Shown here: positions 4,174-60,245 of the stretch, piece by piece | Position numbering within the stretch: the first letter of the stretch is position 1 | Layout of the letters: every line of letters starts with the position of its first letter | Assembly (NCBI RefSeq): GCF_040183065.1 | Contig: NC_091127.1 | Location: forward strand, 105,198,834-105,262,833 | Reading direction: 5' to 3' | Length of the DNA stretch: 64,000 bases | Source of the DNA: Periplaneta americana | Taxonomy: Eukaryota > Arthropoda > Insecta > Blattodea > Blattidae | Notes under the pieces: model-generated | What the model was told of the DNA's origin: nothing | Databases searched by the model: none | What the model saw: only the letters and a program-made list of their open reading frames with translations | Program-made: the position numbers and the translations under genes

Positions 4174-5000
4174 GTCAATCATTTTGACTGCATAGACATA
4201 ACAAAGCAGTTGACATTAGATGACTTCAGAAAGAAAATAAAACACCCCAGATAATATGATTTTGATAGCAACTGCGTTAAACACAATAAACGAGAAATTC
4301 CCAGAGCCAGACTGGATTAGGATATAAACAGACGGGTCACAAATCGGTGATATGCTGGGGATGGGATACATTTCAAACGTTTTTCTCAATATGTCCATGT
4401 TGGGCAGCATATGAATAACTATGATGCTGAAATACATGCAATCCCTTTTGGTATTAACAATCTCATCTACATAATCAATTCCTTTACATAAGCAGTGATA
4501 CTGTTCGACTCGAGAGCTGCCATCCAAACGGTGTCGCCAAACCATCCTACAGAAACAACAGCCACAACCGAAATGAAGCTAGCCGTAAAATACCTCATGA
4601 GAAGAAATAAGGAGGTTGTGTTCCATTGGATACTCTCTCATGTAGGAATCGAGGGCAATGAGTCAGCCGACTTATTGGCCAAGAAGGGAATACAATTTCA
4701 ACTCGATCAAAGACCTATTCCACCAGAGTCATTGAAAAAGGTTGTTCACAGAAGAATTTTAAAAGATTATAAAATAGACTTAGTAAATAAATTAAAAAGA
4801 GGGGAAAACATTCAAGATAGCTAGAAGACTTTCAGTAGCAGACCAAGAAAGGAAGCAGTAGCCAAATTTAAGTTAACAACAGGATACAACCAAATATAAT
4901 AATACCGGACATACTAGCAGCATTGACGAGAGTGCGAATTGTCGCTAGCGGAGAGATGTGGTATTACGACCACAAATACAAATATTAACATAGCGAAAAT
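4174..5000 (+). pseudogene. LINE RNase H domain and downstream region (broken)
   Basis: Three RNase H signatures appear in order. A TDGSQ segment after PDWIRI is at about 4307-4345. The segment NYDAEIHAI follows at about 4420-4450, shifted in frame. FDSRAAIQ is at about 4503-4526, inside an open frame 4495-4824 that continues with FHWILSHVGIEGNESADLLA, the classic end of the domain. AVAKFKLTTG after it matches the region preceding the terminal zinc knuckle of I- and R1-type LINEs. The enzyme would degrade RNA in RNA-DNA hybrids during retrotransposition. At least two frame breaks and an in-frame stop (after RI) make it a relic. The end near 5000 is approximate. Confidence 0.78.
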
Positions 5001-8531: not shown

Positions 8532-9252
8532 CAACTTGTTTCCGAGGTGGTGTTACAAATTTTCAGGGATGATGGCGAAGGGCTCATGTATCAATTTGAG
8601 ATAAGGGACCCTGGTCCGGAAATGACTGAGTCGAAAGTTACAAGCAAAAATAGTTGTGTGGAAATGAAATAATTTTATTCTTCTGTACACCTCAGTTATG
8701 TTATTTATCTGTACATCTTACACATACTGTATCCATCTGACATTGTTTACGTTGTCTACTTACAGTGTTCCATTCAGTGCGCTGTCTGAGTGATGGGGAC
8801 AGGAAACTGTACTAAAGCAATGCAGATAGCGTAATGTGTAACGGACATGGTTGGTCCTGATATGCACGTCTGTAGACAGCAGTGCATGTGTAAAAGTTGC
8901 AGTGTCCAGTCGATCAGTCCTAATGAAATGGAGGAGTACACGAGAGCGGAATAAGCAGACCTGATTTTCAAGTACGGATGAGCCCATGTGAACAGTAGAC
9001 AAGCTCACAGATTGTATCGGGACAAGTACCCACGTAGGAGACATCCGGCCCATACCATCTTTCCACGACTGTCCAAAGGTTAAAGGTAGGAGGACACGTG
9101 GTGCCAAATTACAATTCCATTTCCACACAACTATTTTTGCTTATAACTTTCGACTCAGTCATTTCCGGACCATGGTTCCTTATCTCAAATTGATACATGT
9201 GCCCTTCGCCATTATCCCTGAAAGTTTGTAACGCCACCTCGGAAACACTCTG
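8532..9252 (+). mobile_element. Mariner-superfamily transposon with ~150-bp inverted repeats
   Basis: The ends CAACTTGTTTCCGAGGTGG (left) and CAGAGTGTTTCCGAGGTGG (right, read inward) lie between TA dinucleotides. The inverted repeats continue for about 150 bp through TCCGGAAATGACTGAGTCG. A second copy sits at 54778-55456. Inside is a degenerate plus-strand transposase N-terminus (8925-9080). Excision with one TA rejoins the RTE frame across RY and DFVGVQE. Confidence 0.85.
8925..9080 (+). pseudogene. Transposase N-terminus (DUF4817-like helix-turn-helix), decayed
   Basis: The frame MEEYTRAE-stop-ADLIFKYG-stop-AHVNSRQAHRLYRDKYPRRR, then PAHTIFPRL, follows the arthropod mariner-superfamily N-terminal domain pattern (YT-x-E-x-A-D-M-x-F-x-Y-G). 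In functional relatives the domain binds the terminal repeats. Two in-frame stops and the missing catalytic part make it a pseudogene. Confidence 0.65.
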
Positions 9253-27450: not shown

Positions 27451-28148
27451 GTACATGTAGATCTTGCAGTAGGTACAGCAACTATCGCCCATCCAAGGCC
27501 GCCAATCTCCACTCTATCTCTAGAGACACTGTAATATTCAGGGCCTATATATTCTGCAATGTACATTTTAGTGTTGCCAACTTGGGGGTTTTCCCCACAA
27601 ATTGGGGGGAAAACACTTTTCCAGTGGGAGGTTTGGGGAATAAAAATGTTAGGGGGATATTCAGGGGAAAGATGAATTTCAGAGGTGTTTTTTGGGGTAG
27701 TTTTTCTAAACTACCTCATTAGGATTTATTTCTAAAATTAATTATAGTGAAATTACTATGTTGTGTAATTGAACAGTGAATGTCATGATCATGAATCCTC
27801 TCTTCGACGGGTATGGGATGGCATGTTTTCTCACTTGTTCTCTTTTTTATTCGTACCGTATTATATTATGACGCACTCACCCGCCCGTTGTCGCGTTGGA
27901 TACGTGTTCTCTGTGTTTTACTTAAGTCATGGCCTACCCAACAATACTGTCTGCAGTAAAATGCAGTTAAGAATTTTCCCAATCTAAATTTATGGTTTTG
28001 ATACTACTGATTTTCATTTCTTTTATATTCCAAATCGATGTTTTCTTATTTTATATTAAATATTATACGCAACAATTGCTAATCACGTGAACTATGAATA
28101 ACATTTTTAATTTGAAACTAAAATTGTATTTAGTATTTTTAGTATTTA

Positions 28149-28220
28149 TTTATTTATTTAACCTGGTAGAGATAAGGCCGTCATGCCTTCTCTGCCCCTC
28201 TACCAGAGGATTACAACTAT
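28149..28220 (-). mobile_element. LINE 3' terminal hairpin region
   Basis: On the minus strand CCTCTGGTAGAGGGGCAGAG is followed by AAGGCATGACGGCCTTATCT and CTACCAGGTTAAATAAATAAA. The nested CTACCAGAGG/CTGGTAG and AAGGC...GCCTT pairings and AAATA tail are the same 3' end type as at 47.94 kb. It marks the insertion of a LINE whose coding part I cannot recognise. Confidence 0.6.
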
Positions 28221-28880
28221 AACATGAACAATAAAATTACAATTAAAAATTTACAATTACAATTACAATAGAGATTAAAGTACGACAAGAATACCTGATT
28301 AAAGTAAGCTAGCTGCTTGCCCAAGTAAAAGTCGGCACTTAGCAAGGTGCAAGTGTTATGGATTTTCAGTATACTGTGGCAATACTTGCAAAATGCAACA
28401 CATTGTTGCTGCGATGGATAAGAAGCCAATTAGTTCGTAATGCGAGGACCAATTATAAAAAATCCAAAGAAATGAAATCATTAAATTAAAATAATGTAAT
28501 TTTAAGGATATGTACCTTTGGAATAACTATCTTATTCTAATTATTAAAAATCCTTCCACATAGGAAATTAAATATATATATTTTTTTAAATATCAACTCT
28601 GTAACATAAGTCGATATGAAATATTAACTTACCTTGCAACAATGGATTTGTCTCCCAGAGCTTTCAATATTTTTGAACATATTTTCCTTTTTTCCTTGAA
28701 TGCCTATTTGAACACAGTGTGCAGCTAAAGCAAACGCAAACATTTAAAAATCAAATTCTCAAGAAATCGTCTTTCGGTGCAAGGAGATACAGGATTGTAC
28801 TGAGAGTATTCTATTGCATGCCAATGTACATGAGGTGTGAATATTTTTTCTATTCAGTTGCGTATGTACTACATAATCAC

Positions 28881-31359: not shown

Positions 31360-32103
31360 TGATTAATTTTGAAATAGTACAGTAAGCATAGAGACTGTCA
31401 CATATTGAAGTGTGATTTATTTTGTTTATATTTCATACTACGAAGTGCATATTTAATGATTTTAATAGTCATTATTTATATATAAAAAAGAATAACAAAT
31501 GATGTGTAAATGAACTAAGATTTCTTGAAAACAAGTTAAAATTTGAACTGACAACAATCATTGGGAGATCTCCTTCTTCATTATCATAATCACCATCACC
31601 TACTAGAAGGCGATCTTGCGCTCTTCCATCCAAAGCATCTTTGTAAAATGAAAGAATTGTAGGTCCAGCGAGTTGTTGGCCATAATATTTTATCAATAAT
31701 CTTTCCGCAGCCTTAATTTGTAGGAATTGGATTAGCACCCTGAAGAAAGTGGATTTAGACTTGACATCAGCACTGATCCTGAAAGTTCACAGTTGCTTTT
31801 TATATTATTTAGAATCCGTAATTATTATACGCCTGTTCTCCTCTTACGACAGGAATTTTTTTCTTGTCTGGAGATCAACGTACCTTCATTTCTGCAGACA
31901 TTACCATTGTGTGACCATGAAATTTTTGCAATGGACTGTGCACCGTTTAATGCGAAATCTGTCAATATTACCAATAGCTTTTTTCAAATATCTTCATGTA
32001 AGGAAGTTTACAAATAAATTCTCGGCTGATAAGTTTTGATTCCTTATAGTATATGGATATTTTGAAGTCAAAGACATTATAACTGTCATAATTTTAGAAC
32101 GAA
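31360..32103. other. No recognised gene
   Basis: Overlapping frames on both strands (88 codons at 31472-31738 minus, 96 at 31749-32039 plus) have no family resemblance and no promoter or splice context that I can defend. Confidence 0.4.
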
Positions 32104-32440
32104 ATTCAAAACTGCGCCTTCGGCAGGAAAAGTTATGACTACTGTGCTTTTCGATTCAGAAGGACTCTTGCTTGTGGACATCAAACCACACGGAACCACC
32201 ATTAATTCTGACACGTATGTGACAACTCTCAAGAAACTTGAAACTCGACTGAGTTGTGTTCAACCACATCGGGAGAAGCAGGATGTTCTGCTATTGCACG
32301 ACAACGCACGGCCACATGTCAGTCACAAGACCACAGACCAGATCAGAAAACTTGGATGGAGAACACTGAAACAGCCGCCTTACAGTCCTAATCTGGTACC
32401 ATGCGATTACCATCTCTTTGATAAACTGAAGGAATCGTGA
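32104..32440 (+). pseudogene. Mariner transposase catalytic half (DD34D), 5'-truncated
   Basis: The open frame 32135-32440 (101 codons) reads VLFDSEGLLLVDIKPHGTTI at its start, then LLHDNARPHVSH and QPPYSPNLVPCDYHLFDKLK. The Asp of HDNARPH (residue 56) and the Asp of CDYHLF (residue 91) are separated by exactly 34 residues, the mariner signature. KFKTAPSAGKV precedes it in frame upstream of the Met. The helix-turn-helix half and terminal repeats are missing, so it cannot be active. The catalytic half itself is unbroken, suggesting modest age. Confidence 0.85.
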
Positions 32441-37023: not shown

Positions 37024-37710
37024 TCAGCAAAGTATACTCACATCATTCTTCTTAGCATCAGTAAGAGGTCTAGGAGTTTCTTTTATTTGTGGCTCTGTTA
37101 TTCTTCTTACTCCTCGTTTTTTAATACGGGTGTCTACTTTGGAAGGATTGTCACATCTAAATGTGGTTCCATTTTCAAAGTAACTTCTGATTTTTCCATT
37201 TTTGTAGATCCTTTTCAACATAACTTTTTTCATGTCCTTGATTCCGTCCACCTTTTTGTACTGTGAAGCCAGAAATTTGTAATCTCGAATTGCCCAATTT
37301 TCTCCTAGAGTTTTAACGGAACTCACTGTTTCAGAAACGGTCATATAATCATTAGTGGTAATTATCTCGGCTCTCTTGCGCAACGTTTTCTCTACGACTC
37401 CGAAAAGTCTATCAGCCGGTAAAAATGAATGACCCCGCACTGGAAAATGCATTACAACTTCGGAAATGTGTGGGTGTGCTTTGCTTTGGAGCCAGAAACA
37501 AAGAGTGTGTACTACGTGCATGTTTTTGTTCTGCCCACTGCATCCGTCACAGAAAAGTCTAAAGCAAGTAACATCCTGCTCAAAAAGTTGAGTTCTACGA
37601 GAAATGACTACTTCTGATACCACTTCATTTGCCCCTCTTCCAGACTGAATCTCGTTCCATATGTAGAATGTTGGGGACTTTGTGAGAATGTCATATCGTC
37701 AAGTGAGATG
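37024..37710 (-). pseudogene. DUF7869-like transposase domain, largely open (199 codons)
   Basis: The Met-started frame is 37623-37024, and the family similarity continues upstream in frame (FYIWNEIQSGRGANEVVSEV). Key blocks are CDGCSGQNKNMHVV (residues 25-38) and FPVRGHSFLPADRLFG (60-75). These match the pattern [SC]-D-[GA]-C-x-G-Q-N-K-N ... F-[PL]-[IV]-R-G-H-S-F-[LM]-x-x-D of a widespread uncharacterised arthropod family that I believe is DUF7869. The Asp in DGC (26) and the Asp after FLPA (71) are candidate catalytic residues of an RNase H-like fold; that is inference. The C-terminal part (VMLKRIYKNGKIRSYF) is basic. No stop interrupts it, but the N-terminal half of the family protein is not visible. 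A related relic is at 58.6-59.7 kb. Confidence 0.65.
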
Positions 37711-38897: not shown

Positions 38898-39053
38898 AAA
38901 GGCAAAATGGGTCATTCTACAAAAATGTTTATTTATAAAGCGGCAAATGTCTTCGGTCCTATGTTCATAGACATCTATGACGTAGTGCAGAGGGCGGCCA
39001 CTACAAGAGTTGGAACTCAATCAGAGACAATTCTGTCCGACGCCGGGGTTGTA

Positions 39054-39125
39054 TCCGGTGTGGCTTAGTGGATAAAGCATCAGCACGTAGAGCTGAAAAC
39101 CCGGGTTCAAATCCCGGCGCCGGAG
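39054..39125 (+). tRNA. tRNA-like cloverleaf (GUA anticodon position), probably a SINE head
   Basis: All stems pair: acceptor TCCGGTG with CGCCGGA, D stem GCTT with AAGC, anticodon stem TCAGC with GCTGA, T stem CCGGG with CCCGG and loop TTCAAAT. The anticodon loop is ACGTAGA, giving GTA (Tyr) but with C instead of the invariant T at position 33, and no intron, although animal tRNA-Tyr genes usually have one. The A and B boxes are good, so pol III transcription is likely. The C33 and the following AGAATTTTTCTCCGTTCC suggest a tRNA-derived SINE rather than a working tRNA gene. Confidence 0.55.
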
Positions 39126-40464
39126 AGAATTTTTCTCCGTTCCATTACTCTCTCATCGTATGGTGACGCAGAATATCTGCATGGAAATATCATTAGTACT
39201 TCGATACATTGAAATACAGTAATATTGTAATTTTAAGTCATTTTTTCTATTATTCCTTTACTGTTTACATTTATTTCTAAATCTTTTGTATTGCCCCTAC
39301 TATTATATACAGTATTGCTCTTCAAGAATTTTGTTATTCGTTAGTTGTAAGTAATTACTTAAGTTATATTTTAATTATTGTAATTGTTCCTGAATCATGT
39401 ATGTAACTTGTAACCGTAAATCATTGCTTGTAATATCCTTTTATTACTCTTAACTGTTTCATTGTTTATGAATTAAGTATTAATTTGAAACTGAAAGTCA
39501 AACTTTGTTTTATCAATCTACTATTGATTATCTTTTTAAAATCATGTATTTATTTTGAAACGGTTAGACATTCTTGTAGCTATATCTTTTGCATTGATTA
39601 TTCCTCAAACATCTCACTAATCTTTAACAGTAGTCATTCTTTCACTAATGCGCATGCTTCTACATAATTCATGTGAATTGTAACTGTGACCACTATTTTG
39701 TATTATCACTTTACTATTGTTTATTGGTTATAAAATATGTATTTTGATGCCAACTATAACCCTTATATCTCAGTGTGAAATAGGGTTTATTACATTACAT
39801 AATAAAAAATGAGTGAAAGATGTCATGGATTGCATTACTACTGTATTAATGTGAGTTAAAAGAAAACAAATTGACTAGAGCATTAATTCGAGAGTTGTGA
39901 TACGGTGTCACGGAGCAATGAGGATCGGAGTGCGCGCAAGAAGCGGTATAAGTAGCAATGATTTTCAAGTCAGTATATTTCGAGAACGAGGAAAAAGCGA
40001 AACGAATGACTATTACCCCGTTTCTTAACGAACGAAAATTAGCTTAAATATGCATTTTTCATTAAATTCAAGCTACACGACCTGAGATGATTCTTAAACC
40101 TATGAGATTCAAATTTAAAAAGTTAGAAAACAATCGACACTTGCTAAAGGCGCACACTGATTATTGCAGCTAAAAGTGCTGCGAACATTATAGTTATGGA
40201 TAATGCGCTTTATAACAAACAAGACAACAGACCTCCAACATGAATCTGATTAAAAATGGTGTGCATCAGTGGCTTACTGACAGTGATGTAGCTTTCGACC
40301 CACCGACGTTTTCACAGCATATCTGATTGCAGGAGTTGAACAAGCAGATTTTGTAATTTAATGTGTTTACTAATTTGCGTTTAAATCTTATATCAGTATG
40401 TTTTAAAGTTCGGAGCGAAGTTATATTAATCACATTTATTAGTAATAATAAAAATAATGGCGAT
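39126..40464. other. No recognised gene
   Basis: Very AT-rich. A half-copy related to the foldback element at 36.2 kb lies at about 39941-40000. No coding or RNA features beyond that. Confidence 0.45.
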
Positions 40465-46038: not shown

Positions 46039-46954
46039 CATGGGTCATTTAATAATAATTAGTGGCAACAATGTTTATATGTGGCGCTATCAGCGATAAA
46101 ATCAAGCTGATAATAATGAGAAAGAAGAACACCTGATGTGCGTTATCTGTGAGTTTAAAGACAATAATCTAATTAAAAGATATTTGTAGTGAGTTTACTT
46201 TGTTGACTGTTATCTGTAGTGCTCTAAAAATGTATAGCAAATACGAACAATTGTCTCTTCAATTTTGGTTGGTAGCATCGAACCCAGGTTTCATCTAAAT
46301 TCTAAAGTTATGATACGTTGAAGGAAACGCTTCATGTCCATAGCGGTCTAAGTGCAATCTTGCTGTTTCCATTCTCTGCCACATTTGTTCGTCTTTGAGA
46401 TTGTGTGGAATCCACCGAGCGCAGATTTTCTTCATCTTTAATTTCTTCTTAAGTACCGGTATGTGAAGAATCGTACCAGGAGCAATTCCAACTTCCTTTG
46501 CTAGTTCAATACAAGTCCAACAACGAAGTTCTTCCAGCAGTGCTCTTACAGAGTTGACATGCACATCATCACTTGCCGATTGCGGTCCTGCCAGCTCCAC
46601 GTTTTTTTATGAACATCTTCCCTCCCTTTGCGAAATGTATGTGCCCACCTAGCCACGGTACGATATGGTGAAGTCTCTCTATCACAAGCTTCCAGTAATG
46701 CTATATGGCATTGTCGAGCATTCTTGCCTCTTGCATTCTGAATTTTAATGAGGCACCTTTGCTCGTATTTGCTGAACATTTTAGGGCACTACACATAAGT
46801 CTACAAACTAAACCCACTACAAATATCTTATAAATGAGATTATTGCCTTCAAACTCACAGATGCTCTTCTTTCTCATTGTTATCAGCTTGCATAATTTAC
46901 CGCTGATAGCGTCACATACAAACATTGTTGCCAGTAATTATTGAATGACCCATG
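46039..46954 (-). mobile_element. Mariner-superfamily transposon (916 bp), deletion derivative
   Basis: Ends CATGGGTCATTTAATAATAA and, from the right, CATGGGTCATTCAATAATTA are between TA dinucleotides. Inverted repeats extend about 160 bp, including TGGCAACAATGTTT and CTATCAGCG. The transposase N-terminal half lies on the minus strand. Confidence 0.88.
46295..46779 (-). pseudogene. Mariner-superfamily transposase N-terminal half
   Basis: Frame 46779-46546 starts MFSKYEQRCLIKIQNARGKN with ARQCHIALLEACD and TVARWAHTFRKGRE, a helix-turn-helix. A frame shift near 46590 leads into VNSVRALLEELRCWTCIELA, KEVGIAPGTILHI, KKLKMKKICARWIPHNLKDE and METARLHLDRYGHEAF, the second helix-turn-helix and linker. 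RIITLE.. and WVRCYQPKLKRQ in shifting frames mark the place of the first catalytic Asp block. The rest of the catalytic core is deleted. Confidence 0.82.
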
Positions 46955-54619: not shown

Positions 54620-54777
54620 CGTATACATTTAGATTGTAATGTTATTTGCTACATCGAAGATAACCTACAATACAAAATTGCAAGTCTTATAAATACTGGG
54701 GAGTGAGTATTAATAAAAAGTAATAATATAATGTAATGTAATACAATACAATACAATACAATATGTGATATGATATA

Positions 54778-55456
54778 CAGGTTGTTTCCGAGGTGGTGTT
54801 ACAAACTTTCAGAGATGATGGCCTGGTCCGGAAATGACCGAGTCGAAAGTTACAAGCAAAAATAGTTGTGTGGAAATGAAATAATTTTATTCCTCTTATT
54901 TATGTGTATTTATCTGTACATCTTACACATACTGTATTCATCTGACGTTGTTTACGTTGTCTACTTACAGTATTCCATTCAATGCGCTGTCTGAGGGATG
55001 GGGAAAGGAAACTACATTAAAGCAATGCAGAAAGCGTAATGTGTAACGTACATGGTCCGTCCTGATATGCACGTCTGTAGACAGCAGTGTATGTGTACAA
55101 GTTGCAGTGTCCAGTCGATCAGTCCTAGAGAAATGGAGGAGTACACGAGAGCGGAATAAGCAGACCTGAATTTCGAATACGGTTGAGCCAATGGGAACAG
55201 TAGAAAAGCTCACAGATTGTATCGGGACAAGTACCCACATAGGAGACACTCGGCCCATATCATTTTCCACGACTGTTCCAAACGTTAAGGGAAGAAGGGC
55301 ACTTGGTGCCAAATTACAATTCTATTTCCACACAATATTTTTGCTTATAACTTTCGACTCAGTCATTTCCGGACCATGGTTCCTTATCTCGAATTTATAC
55401 TTGTGCCCTTCCCCATCATTCCTGGAAGTCTGTAACAACACCTCGGAAAAACCCTG
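54778..55456 (+). mobile_element. Mariner-superfamily transposon, second copy of the 8.5-kb family
   Basis: Ends CAGGTTGTTTCCGAGGTGGT and, from the right, CAGGGTTTTTCCGAGGTGTT are flanked by TA in GATATA. Inverted repeats of about 120-150 bp are nearly the same as in the 8532-9252 copy. The interior repeats the decayed MEEYTRAE-stop-ADLNFEYG-stop-ANGNSR N-terminus (about 55131-55260). Both copies share the same two stops, so they come from an already dead, non-autonomous parent. Confidence 0.87.
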
Positions 55457-55619
55457 TATATATGATATACTTAGGTATGATACGATAATTATGATATGAT
55501 ATGATATGATATGATATGATATGATATATGATATGATATATGATATGATATATGATTATGATGATATATGATATAATATGATATGATATATGATATGATA
55601 TGAATGTTAAATGTTATAT

Positions 55620-55836
55620 TTTATTTAACGACGCTCGCAACTGCAGAGGTTATATCAGCGTCGCCGGATGTGCCGGAATTTTGTCCCACAGGAGTTCTTT
55701 TACATGCCAGTAAATCTACTGACATGAGCCTGTCGCATTTAAGCACACTTAAATGCCATCTACCTGGCACGGGATCGAACCCGCAACCTTGGCCATAGAA
55801 GGCCAGCGCTATACCAACTCGTCAACCAGGTCGACG
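55620..55836 (-). mobile_element. SINE family B, copy 1
   Basis: On minus: GTTGGTATAGCGCTGGCCTT (A box), GTTGCGGGTTCGATCCCG (B box), body with TGGCATTTAAGTGTG and GACATGTCAGTAGATTTACTG-like words. It ends GTTGCGAGCGTCGTTAAATA. Pentamer repeats border both sides. Confidence 0.87.
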
Positions 55837-56105
55837 ATATGATATGGTATATGATATGATATGATATATGATATGATATACGTATACATTTACTTGTGTT
55901 AGTTTCTACATCGAAGATAATGTACAATACAAAATTGCAAGTTTTACAAGTACTGAAGAGTGAATATTAATAACTAGTAATAATATAATGTAATGTAATA
56001 CAATGCAATACGTACGTACAATACAATATAATACAATACAACATGTGATATGATATGTATATATGATACGATAATTGTGATATATGATATGATATTACAT
56101 GATAT

Positions 56106-56352
56106 CGTCGTTGTTCCTGCAATAACTCCTATGTGACATATTTATCGATTTTAAGATTTTTGCTCTATTAAATAATTTAAATAGTGATACAGTAAATAAT
56201 AAAATCTATATGTAATTACATTTCTTTGTTTCGAAAATGTAAGAATTCACATTCTCCTATGTACGGCTCTCATAGGATGAGTAAATGCGTTTTTTCTTCC
56301 GGCTGAAAAATTTTATATTTTGCACATACGAGTTATTGCAGGAACGACGACG
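56106..56352. mobile_element. Small inverted-repeat element (247 bp) in the GATAT array
   Basis: CGTCGTTGTTCCTGCAATAA with CTCCTATGTG at the left and CGTCGTCGTTCCTGCAATAA with CTCGTATGTG from the right. About 27 of 30 match. The flanks are GATAT on both sides, so the target duplication cannot be separated from the repeat. No coding content; superfamily unassigned. Confidence 0.72.
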
Positions 56353-56590
56353 ATATGATATGATATGATGTGATATGATATGATATGATATGATATATGA
56401 TATGATATGATATGAAAAGTGAGACGTGAGACGTGCACGTATATAGTACATTTAGATTGTAACGTTAGTTGCTACATCGAAGATAATGTACAATACAAAA
56501 TTGCAAATTTTATAAATACTGAAGAGTGAATATTAATAATTAGTAATAATATAATGTAATGTAATACAATTCAATACAATATGTGATATA

Positions 56591-56812
56591 TGGTAGGTTG
56601 GTCGGCCTCGGTAGCGTACTTGGTATAGCGCTGGCCTTCTATGCTCGAGGTTGCGGGTTCTATCCCGGCCCAGGTCGATGGCATTTAATTGTGTTTAAAT
56701 GCGACAGTCTTATGTCAGTAGATTTCTGGCATGTAAAAGAACTCCTGAGGGACAAAATTCCGGTACATCGTATATAACCTCTGCAGTTGCGAGCGTCGTT
56801 AAATAAACCATA
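56591..56812 (+). mobile_element. SINE family B, copy 2
   Basis: GGTCGGCCTCGGTAGCGTAC with TTGGTATAGCGCTGGCC opens the head; B box GGTTGCGGGTTCTATCCCGG has one change (CTATC for CGATC). The body matches copy 1 and ends GCGAGCGTCGTTAAATAAAC. It lies in the opposite orientation to copy 1, 750 bp away. Confidence 0.87.
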
Positions 56813-57135
56813 ATTTAAATGTTTATGATATGATATATGTCATGATATAATATGATATATGATTTGGTATGATATATGATATGACATGATATGATATATG
56901 ATATGATATGATATATGATATGATATATGATATGATATGATATGATATGATATGATATGATATGATATGATATGATATGATATGATATGATATGAGAAGT
57001 GAGACGTGATATATGATACATGAGATATGATGTGAGATATGTGAGATGTGATATGAGATAATTGAGATATGAGATGTGATGTGTGAGTTGTGAGGTGTGA
57101 GATGTGATATGATACATGATGTGTGAGGTGACATA

Positions 57136-57870: not shown

Positions 57871-58119
57871 CAGAGCTAGGAAGTTGGTACCGAAACTGTT
57901 TAGTTGTGTGAGTTTGGACTGTATCTATACCGAATGAGAAGTAGCTCTCCATGTCAATGAACCAGAACGACAAACATGTACAGCCGAATGGTAACCAAAT
58001 TTGTCCTCCAATCGTCCACGGCCTTAGAACAGAAAACAATAAACGAATAATAATAAAAAAATTGTAATTATAAACTTCGTAACTCCCAATCTAAAATAAT
58101 TTGCCCATACATATATACA

Positions 58120-60245
58120 ATTAAATCGTTCCTTGTTGAAAGGAACTAAATCCACATTTTTGTCAAATTCACTTTTTTATCGATTTGTAATGTAGAAAGC
58201 AAACTGCTTCTGTTGGTGTTGGAACGAACTTGTTACTCATATTCCTTGTGCTTTATTTGAGGTGGCCAATCTTGTCATTCCGTGTTGAAAGGAACTAACT
58301 CCTGTAGATAGTGCTTTTCAACACGGAACTACGAAGGTTCCAGGTTGGCGGCCCTGTGCTAACAGTGTATTCTGCCTCCAATATTTCGCGGGTTTTATAG
58401 TCTGCAGAGACTGATTGTTGAATATGCATATTAGTTGTTTGTCCCATTAAATGTTCAGATTTGATTATTCTGTACTTGATAACAGTATCAGATAATGGAA
58501 GACAGAGTACACAAGGACGTGAAAAGTAGCGTCAACGTCACGATGAAATATACCTTAGAATATTTGTTGATGTGAAATAAAATTTTTATGTTCAATATTT
58601 TAATAAGAATTTTGCATATCGATTTGTTAGGCCACAAATTGACGTTTGTAGCAAGTGTAAAGAACTTGAAACAAAAGAAAAATCTCTACACTTATCACAA
58701 AACGTAAAACTAGCAGCACTTAATGAATTATAAGTTCATAAAAGAAGAAGTAAAAAATTGTATTCCAACTTACACTCAAGCTCTGAATCCTGTAACTCTG
58801 ATGAAACACTATGTATAGCATTTGATTACATGCAAAATCTTCCCCTTCCTTATATACCTGTTCAGGAGATTTTCTATCTCAGATAGCTCTGAGTTAATGT
58901 TTTTAATATTCATAACCTTAATGACAACAGTTGCAAAGTATACATGTATCATGAGGGAGAGGTCAAAAAAATGCCAATGAAGTATGTGCTTTCATTCTGG
59001 ACTACCTCACTAATGAGTAAAACAAAATGTCAAGAAACTCCATCTTTACTCAGATGGGTGCCCAGCTCAGAATAGAAACCATTAATTCATTCGGCTTTTC
59101 ATGGGTTTAGTTGAGGATAAAATGTTTGATGAAATAATTAACCGATTCCCTATCAGAGGGCATTCCTTTTTGGATTTTGGAGTGTTAAAAAAAACAATTC
59201 AGCAATGTGATAGAGTCTGTACATGTAAAGAATACTGTAACATCATTGCTAATGCAAAACTCAATATTAGTGTAAAAATAGTAACAGGTAATGATATTTA
59301 TGATGTAAATAAATGATAGCCCACATTTTATAAAAAGACCACGCTCAGTGATGAATCAGCTGGGTGGAATATCCCTCGGAATATGAAGATGACATTTGCT
59401 CCTGCATCATTCTCAGAGTTTCTATATTCTGCTGATCACCCTGGTACGATTGTAACTCGTCCTTTTATTGAGAGTCCAGTCAGTCACTCTTTCCATCTAT
59501 CAAACCCTGGCACAAGAAATTGTAATCTTATTAGCCAATTACAGAAAGCCTATCCTGAAGGACGAGTTCCAATCAAAACAAGTAAACTAGATGATGTGAG
59601 GAAAGGTTATCGTTATGTCACTACATCAGGGGATAGCAAAGATTTCTATGAAGAAATATTTCAATGACCAACGGAATAAAAAGAAAACCTACTTTATTGA
59701 AAACAGTAATTATTTGAAGTGTTGCTCTGTACTTACCCAAGAATAATAATATATTGGTTAATTCAATCAAATAGTATGGATATTTTAAAACCTTTGTTTT
59801 ATTTTCTGAGTTATTCTCATTACAAAGGTGTAGGACTACTGTAAACATTCTATGTATATTGTGAAAATAATGTATGTTATACTGCACCATGCAAGTAACA
59901 TGTTTCATAGTTAATTTTTTTCTTAAGACATGTATTTCAGGTGATTTACTAAATTCCCAATTTATTTTTATAGGCCAAAATATGTTCACATTCTTATAAA
60001 TAGAGCATTTCCATGTTGAAAGGAACTAAGTCCAGTTACGTGTTTTGTAGATTAGAAAGATTCTAATGACTGTGCGAATATTTTTATGAGTCTAAACTAA
60101 TTCTGTATGCTTATATTTTATGTGCACAATATATTTTGGTTTAATCTTCGATAGATTACTCACAAAACAGTTTTTTTTTCGATTATCTCAAAACTTTAAA
60201 AAGTGGACTTAGTTCCTTTCAACAATAACCGATTCAATTATAATT
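58120..60245 (+). mobile_element. Candidate DNA transposon encoding a DUF7869-like protein
   Basis: The motif GTTGAAAGGAACTAA occurs at 58135-58149, 58284-58298 and 60015-60029, and inverted at 60209-60223. Outer flanks also match in inverted sense (AATTAAATCG-TT at left; AATTGAATCGGTT from the right). So the ends look like 40-50-bp inverted repeats with an internal iteron near each end. Between them lies a single protein relic (58598-59667). Another inverted pair, TTCCGTGTTGAAA/TTTCAACACGGAA, lies at 58278-58329. The target duplication is unresolved, so exact ends are approximate. Confidence 0.62.
58598..59667 (+). pseudogene. DUF7869-like transposase relic
   Basis: Across frames: FVRPQIDVCSKCKELETKEK (C-x2-C), IAFDYMQNLPLPYIPVQEIF with YLR, NVFNIHNLNDNSCKVYMYHE and VLSFWTTSLMSKTKCQ. 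Then NRFPIRGHSFLDFGVLKKTI (59143-59202) and an open 94-codon tail (59383-59667) with FSEFLYSADHPGTIVTRPFI. The blocks and their order are those of the arthropod family also seen at 37.0-37.7 kb. The D-G-C-x-G-Q-N-K-N block has become MGAQLRIETINSF-like sequence. Five or more breaks show it is dead. A role as the transposase of this element is inferred from position. Confidence 0.65.

Follow-up and report, generated by a model that had tools for sequence, protein, structure and literature searches.

A decayed DNA transposon of probable Sola2 type in the American cockroach genome, with DUF7869 as its likely transposase

Towards the right-hand end of a 64-kb stretch of the Periplaneta americana genome (64,000 nucleotides, referred to here as the window), the broken remnant of a DUF7869-like protein gene (Pfam PF25273) lies between inverted repeats. 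This arrangement raises the question of whether the locus is a transposon, of which kind, and whether the protein is the enzyme that moved it. The preliminary description of the window had proposed an undescribed DNA transposon with DUF7869 as its transposase. We conclude with good confidence that the locus holds a Sola2-type cut-and-paste DNA transposon, in a dead copy that has suffered internal deletion, and that a role as transposase of these elements best explains the DUF7869 family.

The ends of the element were set from aligned copies elsewhere in the genome. A DNA search of the 3.23-Gb cockroach genome with positions 58120–60245 gave 641 first-look candidates, 40 of which were scored; 39 copies were taken with 300-bp flanks and, with the window copy, make up the 40 examined here. 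Five other near-complete copies among the 40 scored have both ends in common and are 91–95% identical. The window copy is 2113 bp long (Table 1); the element proposed earlier is real, but the coordinates first given were too wide, the true ends lying 3 bp and 10 bp inside them. The 15-mer GTTGAAAGGAACTAA occurs four times as an exact match, at the places originally reported and with the outer right copy inverted, and the outer pair sits inside a 45-nt inverted repeat that is 84% complementary. The two subterminal copies may be additional binding sites, a role to which conservation lends no support, the 15-bp repeats showing no clear excess over neighbouring sequence (65th–93rd percentile).

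Table 1 Features of the transposon copy and of the second DUF7869 fragment in the window.
Feature	Position	Strand	Basis
Left target site duplication, AATT	58119..58122	.	Sequence and copy alignment
Whole transposon copy, internally deleted, frames broken	58123..60235	+	34 two-ended copies
Left terminal inverted repeat, AAATCGTTCCTTGTTGAAAGGAACTAA... (most copies: GAATCG)	58123..58160	+	
15-bp repeat copy 1, within left terminal repeat	58135..58149	+	
15-bp repeat copy 2, subterminal, in short hairpin 58278-58328	58284..58298	+	
DUF7869-like transposase gene remnant (putative), three frames, N-terminal part absent	58602..59667	+	
15-bp repeat copy 3, subterminal right	60015..60029	+	
Right terminal inverted repeat	60198..60235	-	
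15-bp repeat copy 4, inverted	60209..60223	-	
Right target site duplication, AATT	60236..60239	.	Sequence and copy alignment
Partial DUF7869 protein (224 aa) of another family; PF25273 match at E 7.9e-7	37024..37698	-	

Both ends, GAATCG...CGATTC, are present in 34 of the 40 examined copies. Identical 4-bp flanks bound 25 of these 34 (15 AATT, 4 AAAT, 3 ATTT, 2 ATAT and 1 AGTT), 24 of the 25 fitting AWWT, and the remaining nine copies have non-identical flanks. When the flanks were re-paired at random in 10,000 trials, the mean number of identical pairs was 10.2 and the maximum 18, as against the 25 observed. The inverted ends and target duplication that had been proposed are therefore common to dispersed genome copies, and the window copy itself is flanked by AATT; genome search and copy alignment, named in the preliminary description as the route to exact ends, gave both the ends and the 4-bp duplication. 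Copies sharing both ends with the protein inside do exist, and DUF7869 is not a single-copy host gene, the two points on which that proposal had been staked.

The two-ended copies comprise 10 long ones (2.0–3.0 kb; mean pairwise difference 4.5%), 22 of less than 1.2 kb (5.9%) and two more of ~1.3 kb. Many of the shorter copies fuse query positions 1–396 to about 1392–2123 and are thus ~1.1-kb deletion derivatives. Just past QNRN within the putative transposase frame, expansion of a short tandem repeat that codes HSFIHSFI... is seen in L011, L016, L017 and L018.

The flanks of 24 copies were joined with a single copy of the duplication and compared with all fetched DNA. The joined flanks of L018 find an uninterrupted match in L054 (215/240 positions, 6 gaps), in which AAAT is present once; this paralogous empty site shows a related repeat as it was before insertion, and is the only clean one among the 24. 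For L021 and L027, the joined flanks reach no more than 79.5% identity to a repeat, with gaps near the junction, and for the other 21 none of the matches listed from the fetched DNA spans the junction. The window itself holds, at 28145–28311, a 74–78% relative of the repeat that hosts insertions L021 and L027 elsewhere in the genome.

The protein remnant of the window copy is split over three frames, contains stops and lacks the N-terminal part present in a longer sister copy, L047; the copy is dead and could not supply the enzyme itself. A 115-aa open stretch of the remnant, located downstream of the core, was scanned and has no Pfam match. The remnant is placed with DUF7869 on account of L047 and of its match to the protein fragment at 37 kb (32% identity over 82 residues, E 8e-9), which is itself matched to DUF7869 by Pfam. 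Two Asp codons are kept, at 58824–58826 (FDYMQNLPLP) and 59053–59055 (SDGCPAQNRN), and a third is gone because the copy lacks the 12 bp coding PCDM of RGHSFLPCDMDFG seen in related copies. Of the two candidate catalytic residues put forward earlier, the Asp of the DGC motif is hence kept in the 58-kb copy, whereas the Asp following RGHSFLPx, its PCDM codons missing there, is present in the 37-kb copy. The 37-kb fragment had been taken for a second, better preserved copy of the protein; it is a DUF7869 member, but of a different, divergent family and without the N-terminal half, and no ends of its own were found around 37024–37698.

DUF7869 is abundant in this genome, the PF25273 profile giving 2969 first-look candidates, of which 150 were scored and all 150 lie above the curated cut-off; 14 control genomes had zero PF25273 places. 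We examined 34 DUF7869 places (L048–L077, L087, L088, L090 and L091, with L076 equal to L077 in sequence). Both ends were located in 20 of the 34 and not in the other 14, and identical 4-bp flanks bound 19 of the 20, 17 of them AWWT and 2 AGTT. All six members of family F-B (2.63–2.67 kb) have identical flanks (AATT in three, AAAT in one, AGTT in two), as do six of the seven in family F-C (about 1.3–2.3 kb; L073 is the exception and L068 was read by eye). AATT flanks L066, the ends of which are less alike, and L071; ATTT flanks L070. L069 (the same element as L086) is 2521 bp long, with AATT flanks, identical inverted ends and an uninterrupted 625-codon frame; an alternative end at AGAAAGGG was rejected, as a longer flank puts the end at GAATAC. 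Three copies of about 3.35–3.39 kb with ends alike are flanked by ATAT (L087 and L088) or ATTT (L091), the flank of L088 saying little because this copy sits in an AT repeat. In families F-D and F-F, one-ended evidence is also AATT or ATTT, and for L089 and L090 an end pair was looked for and none found. The end sequences differ by family (GAATCG, GGATAC, GAATAC, GAAGGG and CGYTCG), so that the common target goes with the protein and not with one repeat.

These ends were defined by copy boundaries and not by a program that calls inverted ends together with AWWT; the program called 7 of 30 DUF7869 loci, and its calls in 3 of 28 control chunks trace to two further elements of the window that have inverted repeats. 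A reversed-sequence control for the caller (8/30) was thrown out, because reversal keeps inverted repeats.

The read-through of L047 has 242 relatives; among the 120 matches listed, lengths are 383–650 residues and all carry PF25273, including P0048 (616 aa), annotated P. americana. A Pfam scan of P0031, P0048, P0007 and P0081 found PF25273 in all four. A third protein search, with 31 matches, found relatives in Hydra, Elysia, Plakobranchus and Heliothis; the family, known to the preliminary description from arthropods, is thus wider and extends to Hydra, sea slugs and bacteria. Pattern matches in viral contigs (13 and 7) included zero confirmed relatives. An NCBIfam scan gave nothing above a cut-off, and a profile search of solved structures returned chance matches only.

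Asp249, Glu292, Asp326, His362 and Asp368 (P0031 numbering) are present in 16 of 16 chosen proteins, a set that includes the close copies L087, L088 and L091 and leaves out P0154 and P0169, each of which has one core Asp missing in alignment A2. All 72 proteins of alignment A1 have Asp326 and Asp368, and conservation of Asp249 is 90% or more. Nonsynonymous and synonymous differences per site, by simple counts, are 0.016 and 0.094 for L087 versus L091 and 0.018 and 0.088 for L088 versus L091; between L087 and L088 there are 8 nonsynonymous and 4 synonymous changes, too few for a judgement. As measured by these counts, purifying selection has acted in this one family.

Members of the family are also present in bacteria. 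With profile A3, 11 of 34 candidates in prokaryote contigs were confirmed, including one from Desulfocicer vacuolatum DSM 3385 and two from Thiomargarita nelsonii; the narrower profile A1 gave 68 pattern matches there, with zero confirmed. PF25273 was recognized in all four bacterial proteins scanned (631–659 residues), with E-values from 1.7e-15 to 4.1e-25. Among 198 sampled genomes of the Desulfocicer phylum, PF25273 was found only in the centre itself. The gene lies between inverted repeats, which start GGGG or GGCG, in 6 of the 11 bacterial loci, and AWWT makes up 11 of 12 flanks at these six elements, compared with 3.4–5.6% in the background. Only two of the six flank pairs are equal, and therefore no clean 4-bp duplication is established in bacteria. 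An end pair was looked for and not found in the other five loci: in L094 and L099 just a right end was seen, and in L096, L101 and L102 no end, L099 having been scanned around the wrong frame.

An alignment of 14 proteins, six from bacteria and eight of animal type (P0031 and P0181 among the latter), has 19 invariant columns, the three core Asp included. The invariant core, in the numbering of bacterial L097, comprises D355, E400, D434, G438, Q439, N442, G469, H470 and D476; C147, D278, C280, C283 and H312 are also invariant.

As summarized in the literature, Sola elements have a DDD transposase, a 4-bp target site duplication, inverted repeats from 11 bp, a size of mostly 2–9 kb and a range from bacteria to metazoans (PMC10741241). 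Sola2 duplications are given as AWWT, with ATAT, AAAT and ATTT as instances (PMC3627910), and Sola1, Sola2 and Sola3 are listed among insect MITE superfamilies (PMC5199201). Set against these accounts, the DUF7869 elements likewise have 4-bp duplications (25/34 window-family copies and 19/20 two-ended places of other families) and an AWWT target (24/25 and 17/19 of these duplications, and 11/12 bacterial flanks). They likewise have inverted repeats and sizes within the range (L086, family F-B and L087, L088 and L091), the deletion derivatives being shorter, and likewise occur in both bacteria and metazoans; their core contains three conserved Asp and may adopt an RNase H fold. Unequal bacterial flank pairs are the sole tested trait that departs from the Sola and Sola2 descriptions cited. 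In length, the reported amoebozoan Sola2 transposase (888 aa) exceeds DUF7869 (540–660 aa).

Other cut-and-paste DNA transposons fit less well. Kolobok and piggyBac also make 4-bp duplications, with TTAA as target, and none of the 25 identical window-family duplications is TTAA. The TA duplication of Tc1/mariner is likewise not matched by the 4-bp AATT, AAAT, ATTT, ATAT and AGTT seen here. Sola2 is the best reading of the DUF7869 elements, rather than a proven one, on the strength of their likeness to published descriptions. The kind of element is probably not a new superfamily, since a DDD transposase with a 4-bp duplication is published for Sola and AWWT for Sola2, and the preliminary idea of an undescribed kind gives way to the match in target, core residues, size and host range with the Sola and Sola2 accounts. 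Pfam describes PF25273, the cut-off of which is passed by the scanned animal and bacterial proteins, without a function, and it is here tied to transposon ends.

That inverted repeats and protein merely adjoin by chance has a negligible probability: the terminal repeat of the window copy is just 84% complementary, but genome copies with common ends and interior, 4-bp duplications and an empty site have already refuted this. It is only slightly more credible, and still very improbable, that DUF7869 is a passenger or host gene in transposons moved by another transposase. The window copy cannot be autonomous and many copies are without most of the gene (22/34 are below 1.2 kb), as a passenger would allow; against this, DUF7869 is present in every one of the divergent families, whose ends differ, and is the sole frame of more than 250 codons in the fetched stretches of L086, L087 and L088 and the sole long forward frame between the inverted repeats of bacterial L097.

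An unlikely but more serious alternative is that the DUF7869 elements form an unnamed superfamily of their own, Sola2-like in target site only. Such a superfamily would be shared by sulphur bacteria, cockroaches, sea slugs and Hydra, its distinct core being D...E...D...GH...D and its target AWWT. In its favour, the words DUF7869 and PF25273 occur in none of the full texts searched, Pfam scans of 4 and 6 members gave no transposase model beside DUF7869, and the likeness to Sola draws on descriptions; the combination of three Asp, AWWT, size, inverted repeats and presence in bacteria and animals nevertheless matches those descriptions as a whole, and argues for Sola2. The family is almost certainly a transposase, as first proposed, by virtue of dispersed copies, target site duplications, an empty site, the location of DUF7869 genes between ends of this type in several families, and conserved Asp.

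For DUF7869 we infer catalysis, DNA binding, an RNase H fold and Sola2 membership. Intact relatives of the window element encode a putative DUF7869 transposase of ~540–660 residues. Its N-terminal part, rich in Cys, and a DxCxxC...H motif are probable binders of DNA or zinc, and the putative catalytic core that follows carries three Asp, in FD.xQ, D.C.GQNKN and GHS...xD. Judging by the anatomy of the elements, the enzyme would bind the terminal inverted repeats and possibly also the subterminal 15-bp copies, the three-Asp core would cut the element out, and the element would be joined at AWWT to nicks staggered by 4 bp, leaving the 4-bp duplication.

It is likely that a large unassigned animal protein family is a Sola2 transposase, and that its gene models are transposons and not host genes, so that gene catalogues listing DUF7869 proteins as host genes could be corrected. 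A domain of unassigned function with about 3,000 first-look places in one genome becomes a transposase family for which ends and target site are known and catalytic residues can be proposed. Cockroach element L086, with its uninterrupted frame, and the bacterial elements make the proposed transposase directly testable.

The window contains several other mobile-element remains. Two copies of another inverted-repeat element lie at 8589–9195 and 54771–55463, both with AAATGACYGAGTCGAAAGTTAYAAG near the ends, and an 875-bp element at 46061–46935 has inverted ends matching at 27/30 positions and AATT flanks; a short frame inside it has no Pfam match. Long, nearly perfect inverted repeats with a spacing of about 1.1–1.2 kb are found at 55612–56815. 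On the forward strand, a mariner-type transposase fragment lies at 32066–32437 (Pfam Transposase_1, E 4.4e-11) and an RNase H fragment, probably from a LINE, at 4492–4821 (Pfam E 2.4e-6). A tRNA-like stretch at about 39044–39130, read by eye, is perhaps the head of a SINE.
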